A stretch of DNA of 41,134 nt from the NCBI GenBank assembly GCA_903856295.1, contig CAIOBP010000008.1, positions 1 through 41,134 on the forward strand, read 5' to 3'. The position numbers and the translations under genes were made by a program. This stretch comes from an uncultured Rhodospirillales bacterium (lineage in GTDB: Bacteria > Pseudomonadota > Alphaproteobacteria > Azospirillales > Azospirillaceae). The number at the start of each line of letters is the position of its first letter. Position 1 is the first letter of the stretch. The notes under the pieces were generated by a model. That model saw only the letters and a list, made by a program, of their open reading frames with translations. It did no database searches and had not been told where the DNA came from. Positions 3,336 to 37,350 of the stretch are shown piece after piece.

Positions 3336-5489
3336 ATGCGTTTTACCATCAAGGCCCGGCTGGCGGCAGCCTTCGGAGCGATTTTGATCCTGAGCGCGGT
3401 TTCGGCGTATCTGGGCGTCGGCAGCCTCGGCTCGGTCAACGACGAGGTCCGGGCGATCGTCAACGGCCCGGCGACCAGGACCACGACAACGCTGAAGATG
3501 GCGAACACGCTGTCGCTGATCGCGCGCACCGAGAAGAACCTGATTCTCGAAAATGACGAGACCGCCCAGAAAGGCTACGTGGAACGCCTCAAGGGTGAAC
3601 GGAAGAATTTTCAGGAGCTTTTCGAGCAGCGCCGGCAGGCCGCCAATGAAGAGGGCAAAAAGCAGCTCGACGGCCTGCATGCCGTGTATAGCGAGTATGT
3701 CAAATCCCAGGACGAACTGGTCCAGCTCGCCCTGCTGAATTCGGACACCAAGGCGAACGAGCTGTCCGAGGGCGCGGCCAAAACAGCCTTCGACAACGCC
3801 CTGCAAATCGCCACGGAGATCAACGAAAAGAAGTCCGACGGCGTCGATGCCCAGGCCTCCGCCGACCTCTCCGCGATTTCCTACGTCATGCTGCGAATCA
3901 ACCGGAATGAAAAAGAGGTGATTCTCGCAGGCACCGAAGAAAAGAAGCGCGAAAAGATCAAGCACAATCCGCCCCGGTTCCAGGAAATCCAGAACAGGCT
4001 GGCGTCATTGCGGGATCATGGCGCGCCGGCCATCCGCCCCGACATCCAGCGCCTCACCGCGGCCTGGAACGCTTATCTGCCCCTGCATCAGCAGGTCGAG
4101 ACCCTGGCACTGGAAAACGGCAACAACCGGGCGACCGCCATTTCCTTCGGCAAGAACCGCGAACTGCTCAAGAAGATCGACGGCACTTTCGAAGAGCTGA
4201 TCGCCTCCGACAAGGAGCGGATGAAGGCGCGGATCACCGAGAGCGAACAGCTCTATGAGCAGTCCCGCACCACTCTGATCATCATGGTTTCGCTCTCTCT
4301 GGCCATCGGCTTCGGCGCGGCCTTGTGGATTTCGCTGATGATCAGCCGCGGCCTGTCCCGGGCCGGCACTCTGGCTCAAGCGGTGGCCGGGGGCGATCTC
4401 AGCCAGACCGTCGACTACACCGGCCGGGAGGAGATCGGCGACCTGATCGGCCACCTGAACACCATGGTCCAGCGCCTGCGCGAGGTGGTGCAGGACGTGT
4501 CCTCGGCGGCGGAGAACGTCTCAGCCGGCAGCGAGGAGCTGAGCGCCAGCGCCGAAACCCTGTCTCAGGGCGTCTCGGAACAGGCGGCCTCCAGCGAGGA
4601 AGCCTCCAGCTCGATGGAAGAGATGGCGGCCAACATCCGCCAGAACGCCGACAACGCCAGCGAAACCGAAAAGATCGCCCGCCAGTCCTCGGTCGACGCC
4701 GCCAAGAGCGGCGAGGCGGTGAGCAAGGCGGTGACCGCCATGCGCACGATCGCCGAGAAAATCTCGATCGTCCAGGAAATCGCCCGTCAGACCGACCTGC
4801 TCGCCCTCAACGCCGCCATCGAAGCGGCGCGGGCCGGCGAACACGGCAAGGGCTTCGCGGTGGTGGCCTCGGAGGTGCGCAAGCTCGCCGAACGCAGCCA
4901 GCTCGCCGCGGCCGAAATCAGCACCCTCTCCGGCCAGACTCTGACCATCTCCGAGGAAGCCGGCCAGATGCTGACCAAGCTGGTCCCCGACATCCAGCGC
5001 ACCGCCAGCCTGGTTACCGAGATCACCTCGGCCTCGCGCGAGCAGAACACCGGCGCCGAGCAGATCAACACCGCGATCCAGCAACTCGATCAGGTGACCC
5101 AGCAGAACGCCAGCGCCGCCGAGGAAATGTCCTCGACCTCGGAGGAGCTGTCGAGTCAGGCCCAGCAATTGCAGCAGACCGTCTCGTTCTTCTCGCTCGG
5201 GAACGGCGGCTCCCATGCCGGACACGGCGGTGGTTCTCATGCCGGACACGGCAGCGGTTCTCATGCCGGACACGGCAATGGTCACGAGTATGAAGCGGGT
5301 GCCGCCAAACCCAAGCGCCGGCCGGCTCCGGTCGCGGCTCCGGCGGCGGCCCGGCGTCCGGCACCGGCGGCGAAACGCCCGGCCGCCGGAGGCGGTGCGG
5401 CGGCCAGCGGCAAGGGCTATGCCCTGAAACTCGACGATCATCACCACGGGCATGGGGACGCCGACGATGCGGGATTCGAGCGCTATTGA
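3336..5489 (+). CDS. Methyl-accepting chemotaxis protein with His/Gly-rich C-terminal tail
   Basis: This is a 717-residue receptor. Transmembrane helix 1 lies at ~9-31. A ~280-residue periplasmic region follows, predicted all-helical, with two similar modules ([11 protein letters not shown] near 63 and [11 protein letters not shown] near 189), which suggests a helical bimodular-type sensor. Transmembrane helix 2 is at ~312-335, followed by a HAMP domain. The cytoplasmic hairpin contains the conserved tip [21 protein letters not shown] near 481-501. After the signalling domain the protein does not end as usual. It has three HAGHG repeats (~623-647), an Ala/Pro/Lys-rich linker and a final HHHGHG segment. 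The tail could bind metal or contact other proteins; this is inference. There is no CheR-docking pentapeptide of the NWETF type. The gene overlaps the start of cheW by up to 38 bases. Confidence 0.93.
5205..5276 (+). repeat. Three 24-bp tandem repeats in the MCP tail
   Basis: Three adjacent 24-bp units begin at 5205, 5229 and 5253. Each codes for (G/S)-G-S-H-A-G-H-G. The last 16 bases (CTCATGCCGGACACGGC type) are almost identical between units, and the first 8 vary. The repeat length keeps the reading frame. This looks like recent tandem expansion. Confidence 0.9.
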
Positions 5490-11737: not shown

Positions 11738-11852
11738 CCGGGGTCTGGGGCTGCCGGCCCCAGTGGGGTTCCAAGGGGCAAAGCCCCTTGGTCGCCGAAG
11801 GCCAGGGCTCCGCCCTGGACCCGCCAAAGGCCGGCGGCCTTTGGAAACCGTT
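11738..11852. repeat. Intergenic cluster of four perfect hairpins (locus 1)
   Basis: The gap between two converging genes is filled by four consecutive inverted repeats: 11747-11761 (5-bp stem), 11771-11791 (9 bp, loop AAA), 11802-11818 (7 bp, loop TCC) and 11824-11844 (9 bp, loop GGC). The last is followed by TTTT at 11851-11854. The last two stems and the spacer GGTCGCCGAAGGC recur almost unchanged at 20588-20680. The cluster probably ends transcription of the che operon and/or the converging kinase gene. Confidence 0.85.
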
Positions 11853-13562
11853 TTAGCCGCGCATGGCCAGGACCGCGCACAACGCCAGCGCCAGACACAG
11901 CGACACCCCCTGCCAAAAGCGCTCGGGGTGACGCTGGTAGAGCGGCGTGTGACGGGCCGGACTCCGGGCATGGCCGGCAAGCCCCTGCTCCAATTGCAGC
12001 GCGAATTCCAGCACGTCGCCGAAACGCTCGCCGGGATCGATGGCGATGGCGCGGGCGATCAACGCCTCCAGCCAAGCCGGCAGGTCGCGACGGCGCGTCG
12101 TCAACGGCACCGGCTTGCCGAAACGCGGCCGGGAAAACGGCTCGACCTCACCATAGGGATAGGCGCCGGTAAAGGCGCGGTAGACCGTGACCCCGAGCGC
12201 GAACAAGTCCGATGCCTCGTCGGCGGCGCGGCCGGCGAACAGCTCGGGCGCCATGAAACTGGGCGTGCCTGGCGTCTCGGTCTCGGGCGCCTCCTCCAGA
12301 CGCGGCAGGCGTACGACGCCGAGATCGATCAGCCGCAGGCCACCATCGGTGGTGAGGATGACATTGTCGGGCTTGATGTCCCGGTGAATGATGCCGGCCC
12401 GGTGCAGACTGGCCACCGCCTTGGCCAGCCGGACCGCGATGGCCACCCCTTCGGCCAAGCTCGGCGACGGCGCCCGGTTCAGCCGCTGTTCCAGAGTTTC
12501 CCCCGGGTAATAGGGCATCACCGAGTACAGCCGGGTCTGGCGGCCGGGCGCAAGGTCGATCACCTCGCCGAGCCAGGGACTGCGCACCCGCCCCGCCACC
12601 CAGGCCTCGCGCAGAAAGGCGCGGCGGCAGATTTCGGCTTCCGACGCCTCGGGCTGGGGAAATTTCAGCGCCACGGCGCGGGTGCCGGCCCCATCGGCCG
12701 CTTTGAACAGACGGCTGTAGCGGCCGTTGGACAGGTCCGCCTCGAGCAGAAAGCCATCAACGGTGTCGCCGACCTTGGGCATCGCCCCGGACGGCAACTC
12801 GGCCAGGGCCAGAGCCAGTTCGGCATGCTCGACCGCCGGCACCGCCAGCACGTCGATCACGATGGCGCTGATGTTGTCGGAACTGCCGGCGGCAGTGGCG
12901 GCGGCGGCGACCGCCCGCGCCACCGTCTCGGGAGCCGAGCCTTCCAGCAGCAGCGCCCGGATGCGCTTGTCGCTCAGCGCGCCATGGACGCCATCCGAAC
13001 AGAGCAAAAAACGATCACCCGGCTGAATCGGCTGCATGACGTGATCGAGCCGCACCGTCGCCTCGATCCCGACCGCCCGGTAGAGGACGTGGGACAGCCC
13101 GCCGCGATTGAGCGTGTGGTCCTCGGTCAGGCAGGCCAGATGGCCTTTGCTCAAACGATAGGCACGAGAATCGCCGACATGGAGGACGTGCGCGGTTCTT
13201 CCGCGCAAAATTAGGGCAGTAAATGTCGTTGCACAATTTTCGAGCATCGGATCGCTGCGCCCTTGAGCATTCAGCCAGCGATTGATGCCCTCGATCGAGC
13301 GCGCCGCCGCCTGCGACACCCCGATGGTCGAAGAAATGGCATAATAGGTCTCGATGAAATCACGGACGCTCAGTTCCGCCGCCACACGCCCGCCCTTGCT
13401 GCCGCCAACGCCATCGGCGACCGCCGCGACGATGCCATGACTGGCCCGCCGCCCGACGCCGGGCAGGCAAAGCCCAAGGCAATCCTGATTGTCCGGGCGG
13501 CGACCCGTTTCGCTGACCTGACCGCAAGCGATTTCGAGGTGAGAGGACGGCACGGCGGACAC
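11853..13562 (-). CDS. PP2C phosphatase / Ser-Thr protein kinase fusion, membrane-anchored
   Basis: The protein is 569 residues. Residues ~10-240 are a PP2C-type phosphatase with the metal-binding aspartates in RPDNQD, AVAD50-GVGG, HVGD131-SRAY, CSD190-GVHG and SSD229-N. Residues ~265-530 are a Hanks-type kinase: glycine-loop region near 272-286, K300 (VALK), catalytic HRD395-IKPDN400, D413 in IDLG in place of DFG, and APE in FMAPELF. A hydrophobic segment at ~547-567 would anchor it in the membrane with the enzymes in the cytoplasm. Such fusions are known beside assimilatory nitrate genes (for example the PA1779-PA1783 region of Pseudomonas aeruginosa, from memory). It is divergent from narK here, so it may tune nitrate uptake or reduction. 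The start is a GTG with a weak ribosome site; a second GTG lies three codons in. Confidence 0.88.
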   Translation of the reverse strand: MSAVPSSHLEIACGQVSETGRRPDNQDCLGLCLPGVGRRASHGIVAAVADGVGGSKGGRVAAELSVRDFIETYYAISSTIGVSQAAARSIEGINRWLNAQGRSDPMLENCATTFTALILRGRTAHVLHVGDSRAYRLSKGHLACLTEDHTLNRGGLSHVLYRAVGIEATVRLDHVMQPIQPGDRFLLCSDGVHGALSDKRIRALLLEGSAPETVARAVAAAATAAGSSDNISAIVIDVLAVPAVEHAELALALAELPSGAMPKVGDTVDGFLLEADLSNGRYSRLFKAADGAGTRAVALKFPQPEASEAEICRRAFLREAWVAGRVRSPWLGEVIDLAPGRQTRLYSVMPYYPGETLEQRLNRAPSPSLAEGVAIAVRLAKAVASLHRAGIIHRDIKPDNVILTTDGGLRLIDLGVVRLPRLEEAPETETPGTPSFMAPELFAGRAADEASDLFALGVTVYRAFTGAYPYGEVEPFSRPRFGKPVPLTTRRRDLPAWLEALIARAIAIDPGERFGDVLEFALQLEQGLAGHARSPARHTPLYQRHPERFWQGVSLCLALALCAVLAMRG

Positions 13563-15055: not shown

Positions 15056-17617
15056 ATGAACAGTAAAGAACGCCTGATCCTGGTCGGCAACGGTATGGCC
15101 GGTATCCGCACCCTCGAAGAGTTGCTGGCCCGCGCGCCGGACCGCTACGACATCACGGTGTTCGGCGCCGAGCCTCATCCCAACTACAACCGGATCATGC
15201 TCTCGCCGGTGCTGGCCGGAGAGAAGACCTTCGACCAGATCATTCTCAACGATCTCGACTGGTACGCCAAACACGGCATCACCCTCCATGCCGGCGACAA
15301 GGTCGAGGGCATCGATCTCGCCGCCCGCACCGTCACCGCCGCCTCGGGCCGGGTCGAGCCTTACGACAAGCTGCTGCTGGCCACCGGCTCGGCGCCGTTC
15401 ATTCTGCCGGTGCCGGGACGCGATTTGCCGGGCGTGGTCGGCTTCCGCGATCTCTCCGACGTTCAGGCCATGGTGGCCGCGGCCAAGACCGGCAGCCACG
15501 CCGTGGTCATCGGCGGCGGCCTGCTCGGCCTGGAAGCCGCCAACGGCCTCGCCGTCAACGGCATGGACGTCACGGTCATCCACCTCATGCCGACGCTGAT
15601 GGAGCGCCAACTCGACGAGGCCGCCGGCTTCCTGCTGCAACAGGAACTGGAGCGCCGGGGCATCCGCATCGTCACCCGCGCCCAGACCGAAGCCATTCTC
15701 GGGCGAGCCGAAGGGCGGGACTCGAAACGAGCCGAAGGGCGGGACTCGAAACGAGCCGAAGGGCGGGACTCGAAACGAGCCGAAGGGCGGGACTCGAAAC
15801 GAGCCGAAGGGCGGGACTCGAAAGAAGACCGGGTGCGCGCGGTCAAGCTCGCCGACGGCCGCGAGTTGCAAGCCGATCTGGTGGTGATGGCGGTGGGCAT
15901 CCGGCCCGAAACCACCCTGGGCAAGGCCTCGGGTCTCACGGTCAATCGCGGCATCGTCGTCGATGACGGCATGGCCTGCTCCGATCCCGCCGTTTACGCG
16001 GTCGGCGAGTGCGTCGAGCACCGGGGCCAGACCTACGGGCTGGTGGCGCCGCTGTGGGACATGGCCAAGGTTTGCGCCGCCCGGCTGACCGGCGACGAGA
16101 GCGCCGCCTACACCCCGACCGTCACCGCCACCCGGCTGAAAGTCACCGGGGTCGAGCTGTTCTCCGCCGGCAGTTTCGGCGAGGCCGGCAGCGAGGACAT
16201 CGTGTTCCGCGACGCCGCGCGCGGCGTCTACAAGCGGCTGATCCTCAGCGAAAGCCGGCTGGTCGGCTCGGTGCTCTACGGCGATACCAAGGACGGCGCC
16301 TGGTACTTCCAGCTGATGCGCGACAATGCCGACATCGCCACCCTGCGCGACACCATCATCTTCGGCCAGGGCGTCGGTGCCACCGATGCCGACCCCTTCG
16401 CCGCCGTCGCCGCCCTGCCCGACAATGCCGATATCTGCGGCTGCAACGGCGTCAACAAGGCGAGCATCGTCGCCGCGATCAAGACCAAGGGCTGCTGCTC
16501 GGTCGACGACATCCGCACCCACACCAAGGCCTCGGCCTCCTGCGGCGGTTGCACCGGCCTCGTGGAAAAGCTGCTGGCCGCGACCCTAGGCGACCAGTAC
16601 AGCGGCGAAACCGCCGCCAAGCCGATGTGCAAATGCACCAGCATGACCCACGAGGACGTGCGCCGGCTGATCCAGGTCGACAAGCTGAACTCGATCCCGG
16701 CGGTGATGCAGGCGCTGGAATGGAAGACCCCCGAAGGCTGCGCCTCGTGCCGCCCCGCCCTCAATTATTACCTGCTCTGCGCTTGGCCGGGCGAATACAA
16801 GGACGATCAGCAGTCGCGCTTCGTCAATGAGCGCCTGCACGCCAATATCCAGAAGGACGGCACCTTCTCGGTGATCCCGCGCATGTGGGGCGGCCTGACC
16901 AACCCAGCCGAGCTGCGCGCCATCGCCGACGTCGCCGACAAATTCAAGATTCCCACCGTCAAGGTCACCGGCGGCCAGCGCATCGACCTGCTGGGCGTGC
17001 GCCGCGAAGATTTGCGCGCGGTGTGGGCCGATCTCAACAAGGCCGGCATGGTCTCGGGCCATGCCTATGGCAAGTCCTTGCGCACGGTCAAGACCTGCGT
17101 CGGCTCCGAATGGTGCCGCTTCGGCACCCAAGCCAGCATGGCCATGGGCGTCAAGCTGGAAAAGATGACCTGGGGCTCCTGGACGCCCCACAAGGTCAAG
17201 CTGGCGGTCTCCGGCTGCCCGCGCAATTGCGCCGAGGCGACGATCAAGGATTTCGGCGTGGTCGCGGTCGATAGCGGCTGGGAATTGCATGTCGGCGGCA
17301 ATGGCGGCCTCAAGGTCCGGGCCTGCGACCTGCTGTGCAAGGTCGACACCGAAGAAGAGGTGCTAGAATATTGCGGCGCCTTCCTCCAGCTCTACCGGGA
17401 AGAGGCGCGCTATCTCGACCGCACCGCCGCCTGGATCGAACGGGTCGGGCTCGATTACATTCACGCCCGCATCGTCGTCGATCCCGAACACCGGGAATTG
17501 CTCTATCACCGTTTCAAGCTCTCGCAGAAATACGAGCAAGTCGATCCCTGGGCCGAGCGCGCGGCCTATGGCGTCGATGCCAATGATTTCGCCCCTCTCG
17601 CCAAGATCGGATACTGA
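15056..17617 (+). CDS. nirB: NADH-dependent nitrite reductase, large subunit
   Basis: The protein is 853 residues from the ATG at 15056; a GTG at 15041 would add five. Domain order: FAD domain (LVGNGMAGIRTLEEL), NAD-binding domain (VVIGGGLLGLEAANGLA), a BFD-like [2Fe-2S] domain with cysteines in CGCNGVNKAS and CGGCTG (~460-510), then the nitrite/sulfite reductase half-domains with the siroheme/[4Fe-4S] cysteines in TCVGSEWC and SGCPRNCAEA. It reduces nitrite to ammonium in the cytoplasm. A 120-bp in-frame insertion of five RAEGRDSK repeats interrupts the flavoprotein part between 'AILG' and 'EDRVRAVKL'. The flanking sequence joins smoothly if the insert is removed, so the enzyme is probably functional with a long charged loop. 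Confidence 0.95.
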   Translation: MNSKERLILVGNGMAGIRTLEELLARAPDRYDITVFGAEPHPNYNRIMLSPVLAGEKTFDQIILNDLDWYAKHGITLHAGDKVEGIDLAARTVTAASGRVEPYDKLLLATGSAPFILPVPGRDLPGVVGFRDLSDVQAMVAAAKTGSHAVVIGGGLLGLEAANGLAVNGMDVTVIHLMPTLMERQLDEAAGFLLQQELERRGIRIVTRAQTEAILGRAEGRDSKRAEGRDSKRAEGRDSKRAEGRDSKRAEGRDSKEDRVRAVKLADGRELQADLVVMAVGIRPETTLGKASGLTVNRGIVVDDGMACSDPAVYAVGECVEHRGQTYGLVAPLWDMAKVCAARLTGDESAAYTPTVTATRLKVTGVELFSAGSFGEAGSEDIVFRDAARGVYKRLILSESRLVGSVLYGDTKDGAWYFQLMRDNADIATLRDTIIFGQGVGATDADPFAAVAALPDNADICGCNGVNKASIVAAIKTKGCCSVDDIRTHTKASASCGGCTGLVEKLLAATLGDQYSGETAAKPMCKCTSMTHEDVRRLIQVDKLNSIPAVMQALEWKTPEGCASCRPALNYYLLCAWPGEYKDDQQSRFVNERLHANIQKDGTFSVIPRMWGGLTNPAELRAIADVADKFKIPTVKVTGGQRIDLLGVRREDLRAVWADLNKAGMVSGHAYGKSLRTVKTCVGSEWCRFGTQASMAMGVKLEKMTWGSWTPHKVKLAVSGCPRNCAEATIKDFGVVAVDSGWELHVGGNGGLKVRACDLLCKVDTEEEVLEYCGAFLQLYREEARYLDRTAAWIERVGLDYIHARIVVDPEHRELLYHRFKLSQKYEQVDPWAERAAYGVDANDFAPLAKIGY
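15704..15823 (+). repeat. Five exact 24-bp tandem repeats inside nirB
   Basis: The 24-bp unit CGAGCCGAAGGGCGGGACTCGAAA occurs five times in a row with no mismatch (15704, 15728, 15752, 15776, 15800). It codes for RAEGRDSK each time. Exact identity points to recent expansion or gene conversion. There are no spacers, so it is not a CRISPR. Copy number probably varies between strains. Confidence 0.95.
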
Positions 17618-20587: not shown

Positions 20588-20680
20588 CAGGGTCTGGGGA
20601 GAAGCCCTGGTCGCCGAAGGCAAGGCCAGGGCTCTGCCCTGGACCCGCCAAAGGCCGGGGGGCCTTTGGAAACCGGGACG
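20588..20680. repeat. Intergenic hairpin cluster (locus 2), copy of locus 1
   Basis: Between the converging nasA and slt genes lies a near copy of the element at 11738-11852: GGTCTGGGG, GGTCGCCGAAGG, then the hairpins 20626-20642 (7-bp stem, loop TCT) and 20648-20669 (9-bp stem, loop GGGG). It probably acts as a two-way end-of-operon signal, although no long T-tract follows. Confidence 0.85.
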
Positions 20681-22618
20681 TTACCGGGCCAAGTCCTGCT
20701 TCAGGGTGTGGCCGGTCTGGCCGAGGCGGGTCCGGTAGACCTGAAGCGCCTCCAGCACCCGCTGGACGTAGTTGCGGGTTTCGGCGATCGGAATCGCCTC
20801 CATCCAGTCGAGCGGATCGACGCCGTGACCGCGCGGATCGCCATACTTGCTCAGCCAGCTGGCCACCCGCCCCGAACCGGCGTTGTAAGCGGCGATGGCC
20901 AGCATATAGGAGCCGCCATAGCCATCGATCAGCTCGCGAATATAGCTGGTGCCGAGCTGGATATTATAGTCGGTGTCGGTGATCAACCGGGCGTCGGTGT
21001 GCTGGAGTTTGAGCTTCTGCGCCACCAACCGCGCGGTCGCCGGCATCAGCTGCATCAAGCCGCGCGCGCCGGCGGAGCTGATGGTGTTGGTGTTGAACGT
21101 GCTCTCCTGGCGGATCAGCGACAGCACCAGCCCCGGCTCGACCCCCGCGGTGTGGCGCAACGCCATGCTCGGATAGCCCGACCCGATCAGCACCACGCCG
21201 TTGGGAAAAGCCTGCTTGGCGGCGAAGATCGCTTCCTCGGGCTGGTGCAGTTCGGTGGCCAGCCGTCCGAGCAGCACCCAGTCCGAGGGCGTCGAGGCGT
21301 CGCGGATCATCCGGCGCAAGAACAGCCCGACCCGGTCGGCATTGTCGCGGGCGTCGATCTCGTGCAGCAGGCGCGCCACCCGCACCAGTTCGCGCCGGTC
21401 GAAGCGGGCGCTCTCGTCCTGGGAGACCGCCGGTTCCGGCGGCAGGGCCAGTGCCCGCTCGCTCCCCAGCGCCTGCGCCGCCAGCTGACCGTAAAACATG
21501 GTCGGAAAAGCCGCCGCCTTGACATACCACTCCTGGGCCTGCTCGCGGTCCCCCGCGGCGTCGGCGGCCCTGGCGCACCAATAGGCGCCGCGCGCCCGGC
21601 TCATCGGCGAACTCACCGCTTGCAACATGGCCTGAAAATGCTCGAGCGCCTTGGCCGGCTGGTGCAAATGACGCAGCGCCAGCCAGCCCGACAGGAACTC
21701 GGCCTCGGCCAGCGGCTGGCCCTCGGTCAGACCGTGGTTGGAAGCCAGGGCATAGGCGCCCTGGGCGTCGTGCTTTTCCAGCAACCGCCGGGCGAGAACA
21801 TTGCGCTCCGCCCACCACAGCGCCGGCCGGCCCAGCTCGGGCGGCGGATTGTTCAGCACGTCGAGCGCGCCGAAATCATTGTCCTTGCGCCGCCGCCAGC
21901 GCAGCCGCTCATAGGCGAGCCCCGGCTCGTTCTGAAGCCCGGCGGGCACCCGGCGCAGCGCCTCTTCCAAACCGGAGGAGTCATCGGCCAGGGCGATCCG
22001 CGCCGCCGCCACCGCCCGATGGGGCTCATCGACCAGGGACAGCAGCCGCTGGGCCGCCGGGGTGCGATGCTCCCACAGCACGCGCTCGAGCCGGGCCTGA
22101 TCGTCCTTCACTTGCAGCAGAGGCGCGAAGCGGCGGCGGAAGGCGGTTTCATCCTCGGTGTTGGCGAAATTGGTCTCGAGCCAGAATTTGCGCACCAGCG
22201 CCGTCACCTTGGCGCTCTCGCCGCGCTGAATCAGGGCCTCGGCGAAACGCCCGACTCCGAGGGCGCTGATCGGCGCATGGGCCTCGAACCAGCCGGCCAC
22301 CTGGGATGCCGACAGATCGGCCGGCATGGTCTCCTCGGCCTGACGCAGCAGACCGGTCTGGTTCGGCCAGGTCGGATTGGCGCGAACGAAGCTGGCGATG
22401 TCGACAAAACTGTTGCCGCTTCTGGGCCGCGCGAGATCCATCCAGCGCAGCACCTTGGCCGGCAACCGCTCGTGGGCTCCGGCGGCGCGCACCTGCGCCT
22501 CGCTCCATTTCTCCTGCTGGGCGAGGCGGAAGGCGGCGCGGTAACTCTCCAGGTCGCCCTCGGACAGCCCTTGCGCCCCCGCCATCGACGGCGCCGCGAA
22601 CAGCAGCCCCGCGAGCAT
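20681..22618 (-). CDS. slt: Soluble lytic murein transglycosylase
   Basis: The protein is about 645 residues. The C-terminal ~150 residues are a lysozyme-like SLT domain with catalytic Glu near 503 (LSLIRQESTF), the motif SSAGARGLMQLMPATA, and a late AIAAYNAGSGRV. The long N-terminal part is helical and Ala/Leu/Arg-rich, like the superhelical ring of Slt70. It cleaves peptidoglycan in the periplasm to form 1,6-anhydro-muropeptides. The start is uncertain. The only in-frame ATG near the signal-peptide core is at 22618 (MLAGLLFAAPSMAGAQG), which lacks the usual basic N-region. The upstream in-frame codons GKSGRLALAA look like the missing part but offer no ATG, GTG or TTG. The true start may be non-standard. 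Confidence 0.88.
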   Translation of the reverse strand: MLAGLLFAAPSMAGAQGLSEGDLESYRAAFRLAQQEKWSEAQVRAAGAHERLPAKVLRWMDLARPRSGNSFVDIASFVRANPTWPNQTGLLRQAEETMPADLSASQVAGWFEAHAPISALGVGRFAEALIQRGESAKVTALVRKFWLETNFANTEDETAFRRRFAPLLQVKDDQARLERVLWEHRTPAAQRLLSLVDEPHRAVAAARIALADDSSGLEEALRRVPAGLQNEPGLAYERLRWRRRKDNDFGALDVLNNPPPELGRPALWWAERNVLARRLLEKHDAQGAYALASNHGLTEGQPLAEAEFLSGWLALRHLHQPAKALEHFQAMLQAVSSPMSRARGAYWCARAADAAGDREQAQEWYVKAAAFPTMFYGQLAAQALGSERALALPPEPAVSQDESARFDRRELVRVARLLHEIDARDNADRVGLFLRRMIRDASTPSDWVLLGRLATELHQPEEAIFAAKQAFPNGVVLIGSGYPSMALRHTAGVEPGLVLSLIRQESTFNTNTISSAGARGLMQLMPATARLVAQKLKLQHTDARLITDTDYNIQLGTSYIRELIDGYGGSYMLAIAAYNAGSGRVASWLSKYGDPRGHGVDPLDWMEAIPIAETRNYVQRVLEALQVYRTRLGQTGHTLKQDLAR

Positions 22619-22643
22619 CGCGGCCAGCGCGAGGCGCCCGGAC

Positions 22644-22672
22644 TTGCCGCGCGCGTTCGTCGGGGGTAAGCT
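22644..22672 (+). promoter_or_regulatory. dapA: Possible sigma-70 promoter of dapA
   Basis: TTGCCG at 22644-22649 and TAAGCT at 22667-22672 are separated by 17 bp, about 37 bases before the dapA ATG. The element overlaps the N-terminal region of slt on the opposite strand. The match is moderate. Confidence 0.35.
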
Positions 22673-22708
22673 GTCCGGCTCAAACGAGATGTCGCAAGGG
22701 AGTTCGGT

Positions 22709-23584
22709 ATGTTTACGGGATCGCTCGTCGCACTGGTGACGCCGTTCAGGAACGACGCGGTGGACGAGGCCGCCTTTCAGGCTTTCGTCGACTGGCAGAT
22801 CAGCCAGGGGACCCATGGCATCGTGCCCTGCGGAACCACCGGAGAGTCTCCGACCCTCACGCACACCGAACACAAACGGGTGGTCGAGCTGGCCATCGAG
22901 GCCGCCGCCCGCCGAATTCCGGTGATCGCCGGCACCGGCTCGAACTCGACCGCCGAGGCGATCGAGCTGACGCGCCACGCCAAGGAAGCGGGCGCCGATG
23001 CCGCGCTGGTGGTCACGCCCTATTACAACAAGCCGACGCAGGAAGGTCTTTATCAACATTTCAAGGCGATCCACGATTCGGCGGAGTTGCCGATCATCAT
23101 TTACAACATTCCGGGACGGAGCGTCATCGACATGTCGGTGGCGACCATGGCCCGGTTGGCAAAGCTGCCTAACATCGTCGGTGTAAAGGACGCCACCGCC
23201 AATTTGCAACGGCCGCTCGATGTCCGGCGCGAGATTGGTCCCGACTTCTGCCAGCTCTCGGGCGAGGACGCGACGATTGTCGCTTTTCTGGCCCAGGGCG
23301 GAGTCGGCTGCATTTCGGTGACCGCCAATGTCGCGCCCTCGCTCTGCGCCCGGCTTCACAACGCCTGGCGGGCGGGGGACTACCAGACGGTGTTCCGCAT
23401 TCGCGATCAGCTGGGGCCGCTGCACAACGCCATGTTCCTCGAGACCAATCCCGCGCCGGCCAAGTATGGCGTCAGCCTGCTCGGCCGCTGCGAGAACTCG
23501 GTGCGGTTGCCGCTGGTCGCCGTGACCGCCGAGACCCAGGCCAAGGTCAAGGCCGAAATGAGCAAACTCAGCCTGATCGGCTGA
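22709..23584 (+). CDS. dapA: 4-Hydroxy-tetrahydrodipicolinate synthase
   Basis: The protein is 291 residues, the normal DapA length. The TIM-barrel motifs are intact: substrate loop [10 protein letters not shown] (T43/T44), [10 protein letters not shown] (Y106), Y132 in IIYNIPGR, and Schiff-base lysine K160 in GVKDAT. DapA condenses pyruvate with aspartate semialdehyde in the first committed step of diaminopimelate/lysine synthesis, which also supplies peptidoglycan. The ATG is preceded by AAGGGAG. smpB follows after 11 bases on the same strand, so they are likely co-transcribed. Next to slt, the pair reflects cell-wall metabolism. Confidence 0.96.
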
Positions 23585-28670: not shown

Positions 28671-28722
28671 CGGGGTTTGGGGCCTCAAGGCCCCAACGGG
28701 GTGCAGAGGCAGGCCCCTGCCC
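28671..28722. repeat. Short intergenic hairpin element (locus 3)
   Basis: The gap between two converging genes holds a perfect hairpin at 28677-28696 (stem TTGGGGCC/GGCCCCAA, loop TCAA), followed by a smaller imperfect one (GGCAGGCCCCTGCC). The opening GGGGTTTGGGGC resembles the starts of loci 1, 2 and 4. It could terminate either transcript. Confidence 0.7.
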
Positions 28723-31131
28723 TCAAGCGCGCAGCACTCCCCCCGTCGCCTTCTCCACCGCGACCTTGATCTTCCCCGCCACCGCCTCGATCTCCGCCTC
28801 GGTCAGCGTCTTGTCGAGCGGTTGCAAGGTGACGGTGAAGGCCAGCGACTTCTTGCCCGGCTCCACCCCCGGCCCCTGGTAGCGGTCGAACACCGCGACC
28901 TCGCGCACCAGCGCCTTGTCGGCCCCTCGGGCGGCGCGAATCACCTTGTCGGCCTCGACGCTCTGGTCGACCACGAAGGCGAAGTCGCGGCGAATCGGCT
29001 GGAACGCCGAGAGCTTGAGCAGCGCCCGCGCGGTGCCGGCCTTCTTCTTGGACTGAGGCACAGCATCGAGAAAGACCTCGAAGCCGACCAGCGGCCCCTT
29101 GACCCCCAGCGCCTCTAGCACCCCCGGATGAATCTCGCCGAAGCGCCCGAGCATGGCGGCGCCGAGGCGCAGCACGCCCGAGCGGCCGGGGTGATACCAA
29201 CCGGGCGCGTCGGTGGTGATCTGGAGATTGCCGCCCGGCGCGCCCACCGCCTCCAGCACCGCCAGGGCATCGGCCTTGGCGTCGAAAACATCGACCGGCC
29301 GGGCCGGCACCGCCCAATGACGCGGCACCATCGCCCCGGCACGGACACCGCCGGCCACGATATCCTGACCCTCGGGCGTGCCATCGCGGAAGGCCGGGCC
29401 AACCTCGAACAACCCGACATCGGCCCAGCCGCGATCGGCGTTGCGGCCGGATGCTGCGATCAGGTTGGGCAGCAGCGACGGCCGCATGACGTCGAGATCG
29501 GCGCTGATCGGATTGAGCAGCCGCAATTCGTCGGGCACGCCGCCGAAATGAACCGCGGTGGCCGCCGACAGGAATGACCAGGTTACCGCCTCGTTGAGCC
29601 CGCGCGCCGCCAGCGTCCGCCGGGCAAAACCGAGTCGGCGCTGCCGGGGGGTGACCGCCGGACGGGTGATGGCATGGGGCCGGGCCATCGGCGTGACCGG
29701 AATCTTGTCGTAACCGTGGACGCGCAGCACCTCCTCGACAAGGTCGGCCTCGCCCTCGACGTCGCCGCGCCAGGACGGCACCGGCACCGTGATGTGGCCA
29801 TCCTCGTGAACCGCCGGCGCGAAGCCAAGCACGGTGAGAATGCGCTTCTGCTCGGCCACCGGGACGTCGACGCCGCCCAGTTGCGCCACCCGCGCGGTGC
29901 GCAGAGTGATCTGGCGCTGCCATTTCGGTTCGGCGCCGGCCACCACCAAGTCGGAGGGCGTGCCGCCGCACATCTCGACAATCAAGCGGGTGGTGCGCTC
30001 GATGCTCTCGAACACCGCGCCAGGATCGACACCGCGCTCGAAGCGATAGCGGGCGTCGCTGTCGATGCCGAGTTTACGCCCGGTGGCCGCCGTGCGCACC
30101 GGATCGAAGAGGGCGCACTCGATGAAAACATTCACCGTCTCCTCGGTGCAACCCGAAGGCTCGCCGCCGATCACCCCGGCAAGGCCGAGCACGCCATCGC
30201 GGTCGGCGATCACGGTCATGGCGTCGTCGAGGGTGTAGTCCTTGCCGTTGAGCGCCTTCAGGGTCTCGCCGGCCTGGGAGATGCGGGCGACGATGCCGCC
30301 GGCCAGCGTATCGGCATCAAAGACATGGAGCGGCCGGGCGATATCGAGGCAGAGATAGTTGGTAACATCGACCAGCGCCGAGATCGGCCTGAGGCCGACC
30401 GCGCTCAGCTTGTCCTGAAGCCAGCGCGGGCTCGAACCGTTCTTGACGCCCGAGATATAGCGGCCGACGAACAGCGGACAGGCGGCCAGATCCTCGATGG
30501 TCACCCCGACCGGGCTGGCCATCGCGCCCTTGACCGGGGCCGACTCGATGTGACCGCCGCTGAGCGGCTTCAGGCTGCCCACCCCAGCCGCCGCCAGATC
30601 GCGGGCAATGCCGCGCACCCCGGCGCAATCGGCGCGATCGGGGGTCAGCGCGATCTCGATCACCGGATCGTCGAGCCCCATCAGCTTGGCGTAAGAGGTG
30701 CCGAGCGGGGCATCGTCCGGCAGTTCGATAATGCCGTGATGCTCATCCGACAGCCCGAGTTCGCGCTCGGAGACCAGCATGCCGTTGGACTCGACGCCGC
30801 GGATCACGCCCTTTTTGATCGTCAGTTCGCCGTCGGGCATGGTGGTGCCGACTGGCGCCAGCACCACTTTCAACCCGGCCCGCGCGTTGGGCGCCCCGCA
30901 CACGACTTGAATCGTGCCAGCCCCGGTATCGACCATGCAGACCTGAAGCTTGTCGGCATTCGGGTGCCGCTCGGCACTCACCACATGGGCAACGGCGAAC
31001 GGCGCCAGCGCCTTGGCCCGATCCTCGACCCCCTCGACCTCAAGGCCAAGCGCAGTCAGGGTGTCGCAGATGCGATCGAGGGCGGCATCGGTCTCAAGGT
31101 GATCCTTGAGCCAGGAGAGGGAGAATTTCAT
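28723..31131 (-). CDS. pheT: Phenylalanyl-tRNA synthetase beta subunit
   Basis: The protein is 802 residues, full-length bacterial PheT. It has the N-terminal EMAP-like tRNA-binding domain (~40-150: CMVDTGAGTIQVVCGAPNARAG region), the B3/B4 editing domain, the B5 domain (GGVDVPVAEQKRILTVLGF), the synthetase-like core and the C-terminal ferredoxin-fold anticodon-binding domain (LSAFQPIRRDFAFVVD onward). With PheS it charges tRNA-Phe and edits Tyr-tRNA-Phe. Normally it lies directly behind pheS. Here two unrelated genes separate them by more than 1.1 kb. The upstream 55 bases have only a weak ribosome site. Confidence 0.96.
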   Translation of the reverse strand: MKFSLSWLKDHLETDAALDRICDTLTALGLEVEGVEDRAKALAPFAVAHVVSAERHPNADKLQVCMVDTGAGTIQVVCGAPNARAGLKVVLAPVGTTMPDGELTIKKGVIRGVESNGMLVSERELGLSDEHHGIIELPDDAPLGTSYAKLMGLDDPVIEIALTPDRADCAGVRGIARDLAAAGVGSLKPLSGGHIESAPVKGAMASPVGVTIEDLAACPLFVGRYISGVKNGSSPRWLQDKLSAVGLRPISALVDVTNYLCLDIARPLHVFDADTLAGGIVARISQAGETLKALNGKDYTLDDAMTVIADRDGVLGLAGVIGGEPSGCTEETVNVFIECALFDPVRTAATGRKLGIDSDARYRFERGVDPGAVFESIERTTRLIVEMCGGTPSDLVVAGAEPKWQRQITLRTARVAQLGGVDVPVAEQKRILTVLGFAPAVHEDGHITVPVPSWRGDVEGEADLVEEVLRVHGYDKIPVTPMARPHAITRPAVTPRQRRLGFARRTLAARGLNEAVTWSFLSAATAVHFGGVPDELRLLNPISADLDVMRPSLLPNLIAASGRNADRGWADVGLFEVGPAFRDGTPEGQDIVAGGVRAGAMVPRHWAVPARPVDVFDAKADALAVLEAVGAPGGNLQITTDAPGWYHPGRSGVLRLGAAMLGRFGEIHPGVLEALGVKGPLVGFEVFLDAVPQSKKKAGTARALLKLSAFQPIRRDFAFVVDQSVEADKVIRAARGADKALVREVAVFDRYQGPGVEPGKKSLAFTVTLQPLDKTLTEAEIEAVAGKIKVAVEKATGGVLRA

Positions 31132-33331: not shown

Positions 33332-33434
33332 TGCCTTGGTCCCGGGGTCTGGGGCCGCCGGCCCCGGCAGGGGGTCAATTTTTGTTTGACCCCAAAGGGG
33401 TCAAGGGGGGCGGCGCCCCCCTTGGTTCTTACCC
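33332..33434. repeat. Intergenic hairpin cluster between rplT and pheS (locus 4)
   Basis: Three perfect inverted repeats lie inside an operon: 33351-33365 (GGGGC/GCCCC), 33371-33393 (GGGGTCAA/TTGACCCC, T-rich loop) and 33402-33424 (10-bp stem CAAGGGGGGC/GCCCCCCTTG, loop GGC). An alternative pairing GACCCC-AAA-GGGGTC (33388-33402) overlaps the second and third. Mutually exclusive stems could partly terminate transcription or stabilise the upstream mRNA, lowering pheS relative to rplT. The start (GGGGTCTGGGGCCGCCGGCCCC) matches locus 1. Confidence 0.8.
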
Positions 33435-37156: not shown

Positions 37157-37350
37157 GGGCGCGCCGATTCGGGGGGAGCGCTGCTCCCCCCACCCCCTCG
37201 CCAAGGACCACAGGTCCTTGGAACCTGGGACTTTTTTTCCGTTCCCCCATCCGGGATGGGATGGGGGAACGGAAAAAACACGCGAGGGGTTCGGGGAGCC
37301 CGCAGGGTTCCTCGGGCTGGGGGCTCGGGGGAACCGCGTTCCCCCCGAAA
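37157..37350. repeat. Large intergenic hairpin cluster (locus 5)
   Basis: The 194-base gap between converging genes holds at least five inverted repeats: 37171-37191 (9 bp, loop GCT), 37201-37221 (9 bp, loop ACA), 37233-37278 (20 bp, listed separately), AGCCCG/CGGGCT around 37297-37318, and 37327-37345 (8 bp, GGGGGAAC/GTTCCCCC, loop CGC). The style (perfect short stems, 3-nt loops) is that of loci 1-4, though the sequences differ. Confidence 0.85.
37233..37278. repeat. Perfect 20-bp inverted repeat with T-run first and A-run last
   Basis: The left arm TTTTTTCCGTTCCCCCATCC (37233-37252) and right arm (37259-37278) are exact complements around the 6-base loop GGGATG. On both strands the RNA would read U-run, stem, A-run. 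That is the reverse of an intrinsic terminator, which needs U after the stem. It may instead be a mobile-element-like palindrome or an mRNA-stabilising structure. Confidence 0.9.

Follow-up and report, generated by a model that had tools for sequence, protein, structure and literature searches.

Three of five hairpin-rich intergenic loci in a 41,134-nucleotide stretch of DNA from an uncultured Rhodospirillales bacterium (hereafter the window) are copies of one dispersed non-coding repeat of about 110 nt. The explanation that we favor, with moderate confidence, is that the core of this repeat descends from a miniature inverted-repeat transposable element (MITE) and now serves at gene ends as a two-way 3′-end module. 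We compared the window's own genome, G000 (4,018,820 bases in 255 contigs), with four sister species of the same genus, G001 to G004.

Re-reading of the sequence found all five hairpin loci at the coordinates given by a first-pass annotation (Table 1). Its account of their surroundings also held, with a converging gene pair flanking loci 1, 2, 3 and 5, each gap wholly filled, and with locus 4 filling the rplT-pheS gap. The near-identity it had seen between loci 1 and 2 resides in a common 50-nt stretch with 88% identity. Stems of 7-10 bp with 3-nt loops, as it described, are often present; the exceptions are the 4-nt loops of locus 3 and a 20-bp stem in locus 5. Similarly, locus 4 does have the start GGGGTCTGGGGCCGCCGGCCCC in common, but it is no plain copy, and the orthologous rplT-pheS gap of three sister species has hairpins too. 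A covariance model (CM), R1, built from 18 G000 copies with locus 1 among them, ranks all five loci within the window, where the best place elsewhere reaches E 0.05. Measured against 200 dinucleotide shuffles, fold z scores on the + strand are -4.1, -5.1, -0.8, -2.0 and -8.4 for loci 1 to 5, so that the fold of locus 3, taken alone, does not reach significance. In its first part, locus 5 is similar to a diverged D module (CCAAGGACC..GGTCCTTGGAACCTGGGACTTTTTTT; CM E 0.004), and the orthologous gap in G003 contains a family copy (L046), whereas the hairpins clustered here in the window are different, with a single module that can be recognized. Locus 5 is probably a degenerate copy of the repeat, and locus 4 is a mosaic on what may be a conserved rplT-pheS leader.

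Table 1. Hairpin loci of the window, parts of locus 1 and flanking genes.
Feature	Position	Strand	Evidence or remarks
Locus 1, full element copy	11738..11852	.	CM E 1.5e-21 (copy is part of the model)
Locus 1 neighbors			Gene ending 11737 (+), MCP-signal match below curated cut-off; PP2C/protein-kinase gene 11853-13562 (-); convergent
Locus 1 modules A, B, GCC-GAA-GGC mini-hairpin, C, D	11740-11850		
Hairpin A, locus 1	11745..11763	+	Sequence, aligned structure
Hairpin B, locus 1: CCAAGGGGC AAA GCCCCTTGG	11771..11791	+	Sequence, fold
Mini-hairpin linker, locus 1: GCC GAA GGC	11794..11802	+	Sequence
Hairpin C, locus 1: CCAGGGC TCC GCCCTGG	11802..11818	+	Sequence, fold
Hairpin D, locus 1: CCAAAGGCC GGC GGCCTTTGG, then AAACCGTTTT	11824..11844	+	Sequence, fold
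Locus 2, copy with shortened A-B half	20588..20680	.	CM E 3.7e-10
Locus 2 neighbors			Molybdopterin oxidoreductase gene ending 20587 (+); SLT-domain gene 20681-23425 (-); convergent
Locus 3, A-B half copy	28671..28722	.	CM E 4.6e-5
Locus 3 neighbors			Gene ending 28670 (+); pheT 28723-31131 (-); convergent
Locus 4, rplT-pheS intergenic hairpins, one module like hairpin A	33332..33434	.	CM E 1.8e-4
Locus 5, hairpin-rich convergent gap, NMO-family gene / carbamoyl-phosphate synthase small chain	37157..37350	.	

The middle of locus 5 (37232-37278) is a long stem preceded by T7 and followed by A6, opposite to the arrangement in a terminator. At the rplT-pheS gap, GC-rich hairpins also occur in G001, G002 and G004 (gaps of 84-86 nt), and in the window the hairpin adjoining pheS bears the A-module sequence of the repeat; these hairpins are possibly a conserved leader or attenuator of the pheS-pheT genes.

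The family is abundant in its own genome. With R1, G000 yields 145 matches at E ≤ 0.01 among the best 150 of 4710 candidates, which amount to at least 142 distinct places once three both-strand pairs are removed, and the repeat is thus not unique to the five sites of the window. BLAST of G000 with locus 1 gives at least 45 matches (best 40 of 251 candidates scored), and the best non-self match covers the whole length at E 2.6e-39 and 91% identity. As expected of a repeat that breaks the assembly, at least 19 of the 142 places start within 200 nt of a contig's first base. BLAST matches are present in all four other species of the genus, which bears out the proposal of a repeat family typical of this lineage. 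Beyond the genus, BLAST found one weak match (E 6.6e-4) in one of 34 genomes, and R1 at E ≤ 1e-6 found none in 95 other genomes of the class under strict filters on at most the best 40 candidates per genome. A pattern of the C-D half with 30 specified bases, however, matches in Methylobacterium, Acetobacter, Asaia, Acidiphilium, Limobrevibacterium and uncultured Rhodospirillales records, so the half-unit is not confined to the window's genus, and the distribution of the element appears patchy. Searches of PLSDB and INPHARED for plasmids and phages (distant blastn with the low-complexity filter on) gave no match, the exact pattern is absent from IMG/VR, and Rfam gave no match at gathering score for the window and 14 loci. 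Our search of titles, abstracts and sequence strings found no title or abstract describing the element's sequence; among Alphaproteobacteria, PMC2267715 covers Brucella and Rickettsia in its available part. Several C-D half copies in the uncultured Rhodospirillales Umea2_bin-1848 (L128-L171) are followed by a similar flank, cattcatttgtg.ggtggttgatcggttgg, and this common flank indicates that the repeat there is longer and differently bounded.

The hairpins themselves are maintained. Covariation was counted on 38 distinct forward-only rows and 32 pairs, where standard pairs make up 98.4% of cells (shuffled mean 95.3) and both sides have changed at 12 pairs and in 28 cells (shuffle means 2.6 and 3.4, maxima 6 and 8), in an alignment that leans towards structure, having been fitted to the model with its 18 training copies included. 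The hairpins are therefore kept with compensatory changes, which could instead mirror subfamilies of the parent element. Gaps with the element also fold more strongly against single-base shuffles: the median z is -5.8 in convergent gaps with it (n=11) and -2.0 in those without (n=23), and -3.7 (n=5) and -0.2 (n=133) in the corresponding tandem gaps. Within the element, the mini-hairpin linker has a variant, GTC GGA GAC, in L010, L025, L027 and L030.

For both the locus 1 query and R1, some places are hit on each of the two strands, most clearly in Methylobacterium dankookense, where L164 scores 84 bits on one strand and 68 on the other. The element there reads CCGGGATCCCAAAGGG...CCCTTTGG ... 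CCAGGGC...GCCCTGGACCCGCCAAAGGCC...GGCCTTTGGAAACCCGG. When A-B was scored against reversed C-D, the Methylobacterium copies gave 41 and 54 (shuffled 9 and 11); the G000 score is a modest 23.3 versus 12.2 (sd 4.4), with a quarter of shuffled controls reaching the lowest observed score. Single halves occur alone in the sister species. Together, the both-strand matches and the lone halves indicate that the unit is a two-hairpin half and that the full element is an inverted pairing of A-B and C-D about a small linker, the two halves having diverged in G000.

The sister species reveal what the core may once have been part of. In G001 and G003 it is enclosed by a longer inverted repeat, whose termini are CTAGTGGGCC.CGTCAGC...GGCCCACTAG, with flanking TA; the terminal inverted repeats read TAGTGGGCC.. 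/ TAGTGGGCCRCGTCAGC..., and the length between paired termini with core is about 104-194 nt, apart from two N-containing copies. The terminal pattern TAGTGGGCCRCGTCAGYTAAATTGC, at up to three mismatches, occurs 21 times in G001, 9 in G002, 16 in G003 and once in G004, with no match to the reversed control in any of the five genomes and no match at this threshold in G000. Stop codons at the termini were examined in 19 distinct copies from G001 and G003, of which 12 lie in convergent and 5 in tandem gaps, 1 in a divergent gap and 1 at an edge. This set leaves out L190, L191, L192, L195, L197 and L204 (no anchor sequence), the duplicates L193 and L194, and L189, which has the core of L188; it keeps L033, L042 and the left side of L046, which are without recognizable terminal repeats. 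Counted by eye, the facing gene's stop is the element's own terminal TAG at 11 of 28 facing gene ends (L032L, L041L, L186R, L188R, L050L with TTAG, L054R, L046R, L196L, L198L, L200L and L200R), and in L200 the terminal TAG serves as stop on both sides. Several copies have TA on both sides, the copies informative for target duplication being few. The flanks of L198 (CTAG left, CTAA right) and L050 (TTAG, CTAA) suggest that the duplicated part is TA, the terminal G and C being the element's own.

Orthologous gaps were sought by joining an element's flanks and searching related genomes. Three sites are empty in the other species: L198 of G003 against G000 (L222); L054 of G003 against G000 (L230), which lacks the element but has the right gene's stop in the same alignment position; and L026 of G000, whose 115-nt gap and TAA correspond in G003 (L251) to a short gap with a TGA stop. 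The first two come from a set of nine joined sites, of which four were aligned (two empty, one filled in both, one decayed). Two more from this set were inspected, namely L046, which faces the other hairpins of locus 5, and L199, which faces a longer unrelated gap. From a second set of 13 joined sites, four were likewise aligned: L026, empty; L027, filled in both; and L087 and L021, which have no recognizable element and flanks that are partly unaligned. Inspection of the L009 gap in G003 and G002 and of the L027 gap in G001 found no recognizable copy. A simple gain or loss does not explain every gap. L196 and L234 carry the element at the same gene end in both species, the G000 copy lacking the outer repeat and abutting TAA. 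L027 and L275 are both filled, and each copy is of the type characteristic of its species; the same stop codon may have been hit more than once, or the copies may have changed in concert. In a further case, the TAG stop next to L041 of G001 has a decayed half beside it in G002.

These observations divide the features of a MITE between the species: multi-copy, short and non-coding in G000, and terminal inverted repeats and empty sites in the sister species. We consider a mobile origin very likely for the sister-species element and likely for the G000 copies as well. Since G000 has no terminal-repeat matches, its copies look like cores that have outlived their transposon ends, and the shared core and inner flanks suggest that they descend from a G003-type element. 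The ancestor was probably a MITE, the complete form of which survives in the sister species, and was presumably spread by a TA/YTAR-targeting transposase through insertion at TA in a Y-TA-R context. YTAR read on either strand is TAA or TAG, and the element's ends would rebuild a TAG stop at the insertion point, so that insertions would spare genes; from the sister-species sequences, the stop codon of one gene, or of two converging genes, could be hit without harm by such transposition. In the G000 sample described below, stop codons make up 10% of YTAR and 13% of CTAG sites, and 38% of YTAR and 34% of CTAG sites lie inside coding sequence as against 71% of all TA sites. CTAG is rare in this sample, with 130 found and about 1480 expected by composition.

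On its sequence, the element appears to work like a TA-targeting MITE such as Correia or RUP. As the available part of PMC2229807 describes them, Correia/NEMIS and RUP have in common with it a length of roughly 100-200 nt, a non-coding nature, terminal inverted repeats, 5′-TA termini, high copy number and a mostly intergenic location. The element differs from what is described there in its sequence, in being built of two two-hairpin halves and in its ability to land in stop codons; the G000 form, moreover, keeps the core without detectable terminal repeats, and a partner transposase was not found. RUP has been proposed, in the same part of that source, to be moved by IS630-Spn1. MITEPsy1 of Pseudomonas syringae, 100 nt long, inserts after CTAG or YTAA, which is duplicated, a target preference that the element shares; the 4-nt duplication and the handful of copies given for it in the available text of PMC3189936 contrast with the TA (or YTAR) and the other terminal repeats of our element. 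An IS630/Tc1-type partner would fit the TA target. A search for DDE_3 transposases gave 16 loci in four of the five genomes, none of them with the element's ends, and these loci were rejected as its partner. No longer element was recognized as an autonomous partner within 1.5 kb on each side of 30 of the 47 terminal-pattern matches (L287-L316), an absence that carries little weight in draft genomes. The core is present at 27 of these 30 terminal-repeat loci, L288 and L310 being without it and L308 stopping at a contig end. At L288 (G004:C113), a terminal-repeat-like pair encloses about 100 nt of other hairpin sequence, which suggests other cargo between the same ends. L310 (G001:C35:171999-172023) has a good terminal repeat and inner flank and no recognized partner end. 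Separately, a DDE_3 match at L205 (G000:C123) is enclosed by perfect 16-nt inverted repeats adjoining TA (GTACCTCGGCACAGTG), apparently an IS630-type element unrelated to the repeat's ends.

The placement of the G000 copies was measured on an unselected sample of 558,596 bases, comprising at most the first 20 kb of contigs C1-C61 except C8, plus the window, which is C8. Gene ends came from a home-made ORF caller, whose starts are less reliable than its stops. At E ≤ 0.01 the sample has 21 copies, three of them in the window: 11 are convergent, 5 tandem, 5 at contig edges and none divergent, against a background of 33 convergent, 158 tandem and 53 divergent gaps of at least 60 nt. Adding the 30 best BLAST copies and removing duplicates gave a set of 48, in both orientations, of which 46 lie no more than 13 nt from a called stop codon (9% when 50-nt half-elements are placed at random in gaps of at least 60 nt). 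Among the placeable copies of this set, 24 of 41 are convergent (14% expected by gap length), 17 are tandem and none is divergent. TAA is the stop next to the element in 20 of 29 and 21 of 33 cases (background 89 of 457). Seen from the gaps, the element is present in 11 of the 34 convergent gaps of 40-250 nt in the sample. Placement in relatives is looser than in G000: 23 sister-species loci divide into 8 convergent, 13 tandem, 1 divergent and 1 genic, and 45 loci in other named genomes into 14 convergent, 12 tandem, 4 divergent, 6 apparently genic and 9 at contig edges, the latter with gene calls trained on few loci.

Bidirectional intrinsic terminators lie between convergent genes and have hairpins readable on both strands. 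The element has this position and these both-strand hairpins in common with them, and is T-rich at about a quarter of its ends; it differs in being a multi-copy, mobile-type sequence that usually has no U-tail and abuts stop codons. T-rich ends (at least 5 T in 8 nt) directly outside the element occur in 13 of 48 and 11 of 47 cases (27% and 23%), compared with 20 of 457 (4%) in a stop-matched control. About three quarters of element ends are thus without a T-tract, and a U-tailed hairpin is present in 2 of the 11 convergent gaps with the element. In addition, a terminating ribosome may unfold hairpins so close to a stop codon. The one direct hint that the element occupies sites in need of a terminator is the L009 gap, in which G003 instead has one plain GC hairpin with TTTTT a few nucleotides later; G002 has neither. 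Taken together, position, fold and T-tracts make a two-way role at mRNA 3′ ends plausible, and to a host function there we give tentative, slightly less than even credence. In G000, where the terminal repeats are not detectable, the hairpin core stays a few nucleotides from stops, often filling convergent gaps. We hypothesize that its stacked GC hairpins there make RNA polymerase stall or dissociate, whichever of the two strands is being read. The same hairpins could also block 3′ exonucleases, giving mRNA 3′ ends in both directions.

Several other explanations bear on the same observations. The repeat could be selfish or dead, a set of palindromic MITE remnants tolerated at gene ends, with insertion elsewhere harmful and no function for the host. 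The MITE ends and the empty sites in relatives suit such a reading, as do the tandem and the few divergent or genic copies there, and the share of sites outside coding interiors is 66% for CTAG and 62% for YTAR versus 29% for TA, so target choice and purifying selection could give much of the distribution. We nevertheless regard it as rather doubtful, given that G000 has no terminal-repeat match and yet retains 98.4% pairing with double changes, and that T-tracts are enriched at both ends. An element of chromosome structure, BIME-like, whose hairpins or cruciforms absorb supercoils or bind a nucleoid protein or gyrase, would account for strong palindromes on DNA and for the convergent-gap preference in G000. 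We judge this improbable, since 12 of the 27 placeable top copies occupy tandem gaps, at most 12 nt from the upstream gene's stop.

The proposal of a REP-like family in the first-pass annotation is supported as far as it concerns a modular family at gene ends, and is not supported if taken in the strict sense of a REP/REPIN family mobilized by a RAYT. The element's layout does recall the inverted dimer of REPINs. REP, GTAG and CGTC repeats are likewise extragenic palindromes in high copy, and CGTC families are found mostly in Alphaproteobacteria, but in the available part of PMC3733652 they are palindromes of 20-40 bp with a terminal GTAG or CGTC tag, whereas the element has four hairpins and no such tag, CGTC occurring only inside a linker variant. 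The suggested check for a REP-associated transposase gave no Y1 transposase (PF01797) match, and so no RAYT, in G000, although the same search was positive in 5 of 14 control genomes, and the terminal inverted repeats and TA target of the sister species are not of RAYT type. RAYT mobilization is therefore rejected for G000, and as a general reading we find it highly improbable. Least credible of all is that the loci are unrelated ordinary terminators or leader hairpins, alike through GC-rich composition. The weak similarity of loci 4 and 5 to the family and the other hairpins in orthologous rplT-pheS gaps are in its favor, but whole-length BLAST matches within G000, the 142 places found by the covariance model and the 30 C-D bases matched in other genera refute it for loci 1-3, though not for locus 4.

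Returning to a MITE-derived gene-end module, we can also picture a bolder version, speculative and rather unlikely to hold in full: a miniature transposon with a target (Y-TA-R) amounting to a double-stranded stop codon, and with ends that restore a stop, carried gene-end hairpins across a genus, after which one species lost the transposition ends and adopted the element as its standard two-way punctuation between convergent genes, in about a third of the sampled convergent gaps. If descent and role are as we propose, a mobile element would have seeded gene-end structures genome-wide at small cost, the stop codon being itself the site that it targets. Complete elements in the sister species, cores lacking those ends in G000 and empty sites would then form a natural series for directly testing the recruitment of a transposon as a terminator. 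More than 140 alike hairpin repeats at gene ends probably also help to break draft assemblies of these bacteria, and could mislead predictions of terminators and small RNAs in them.

The window has further features of a different kind. An FRG-domain ORF (PF08867; 31531-32250, - strand) lies inside a stretch of about 1.1 kb separating pheS and pheT, whose spacing in G001, G002 and G004 is only 11-36 nt. A 24-nt tandem repeat, CGAGCCGAAGGGCGGGACTCGAAA, of about 5-6 units runs from 15680 to 15871 within a called gene (15056-17617), and shorter 24-nt repeats are present at 5206-5282.
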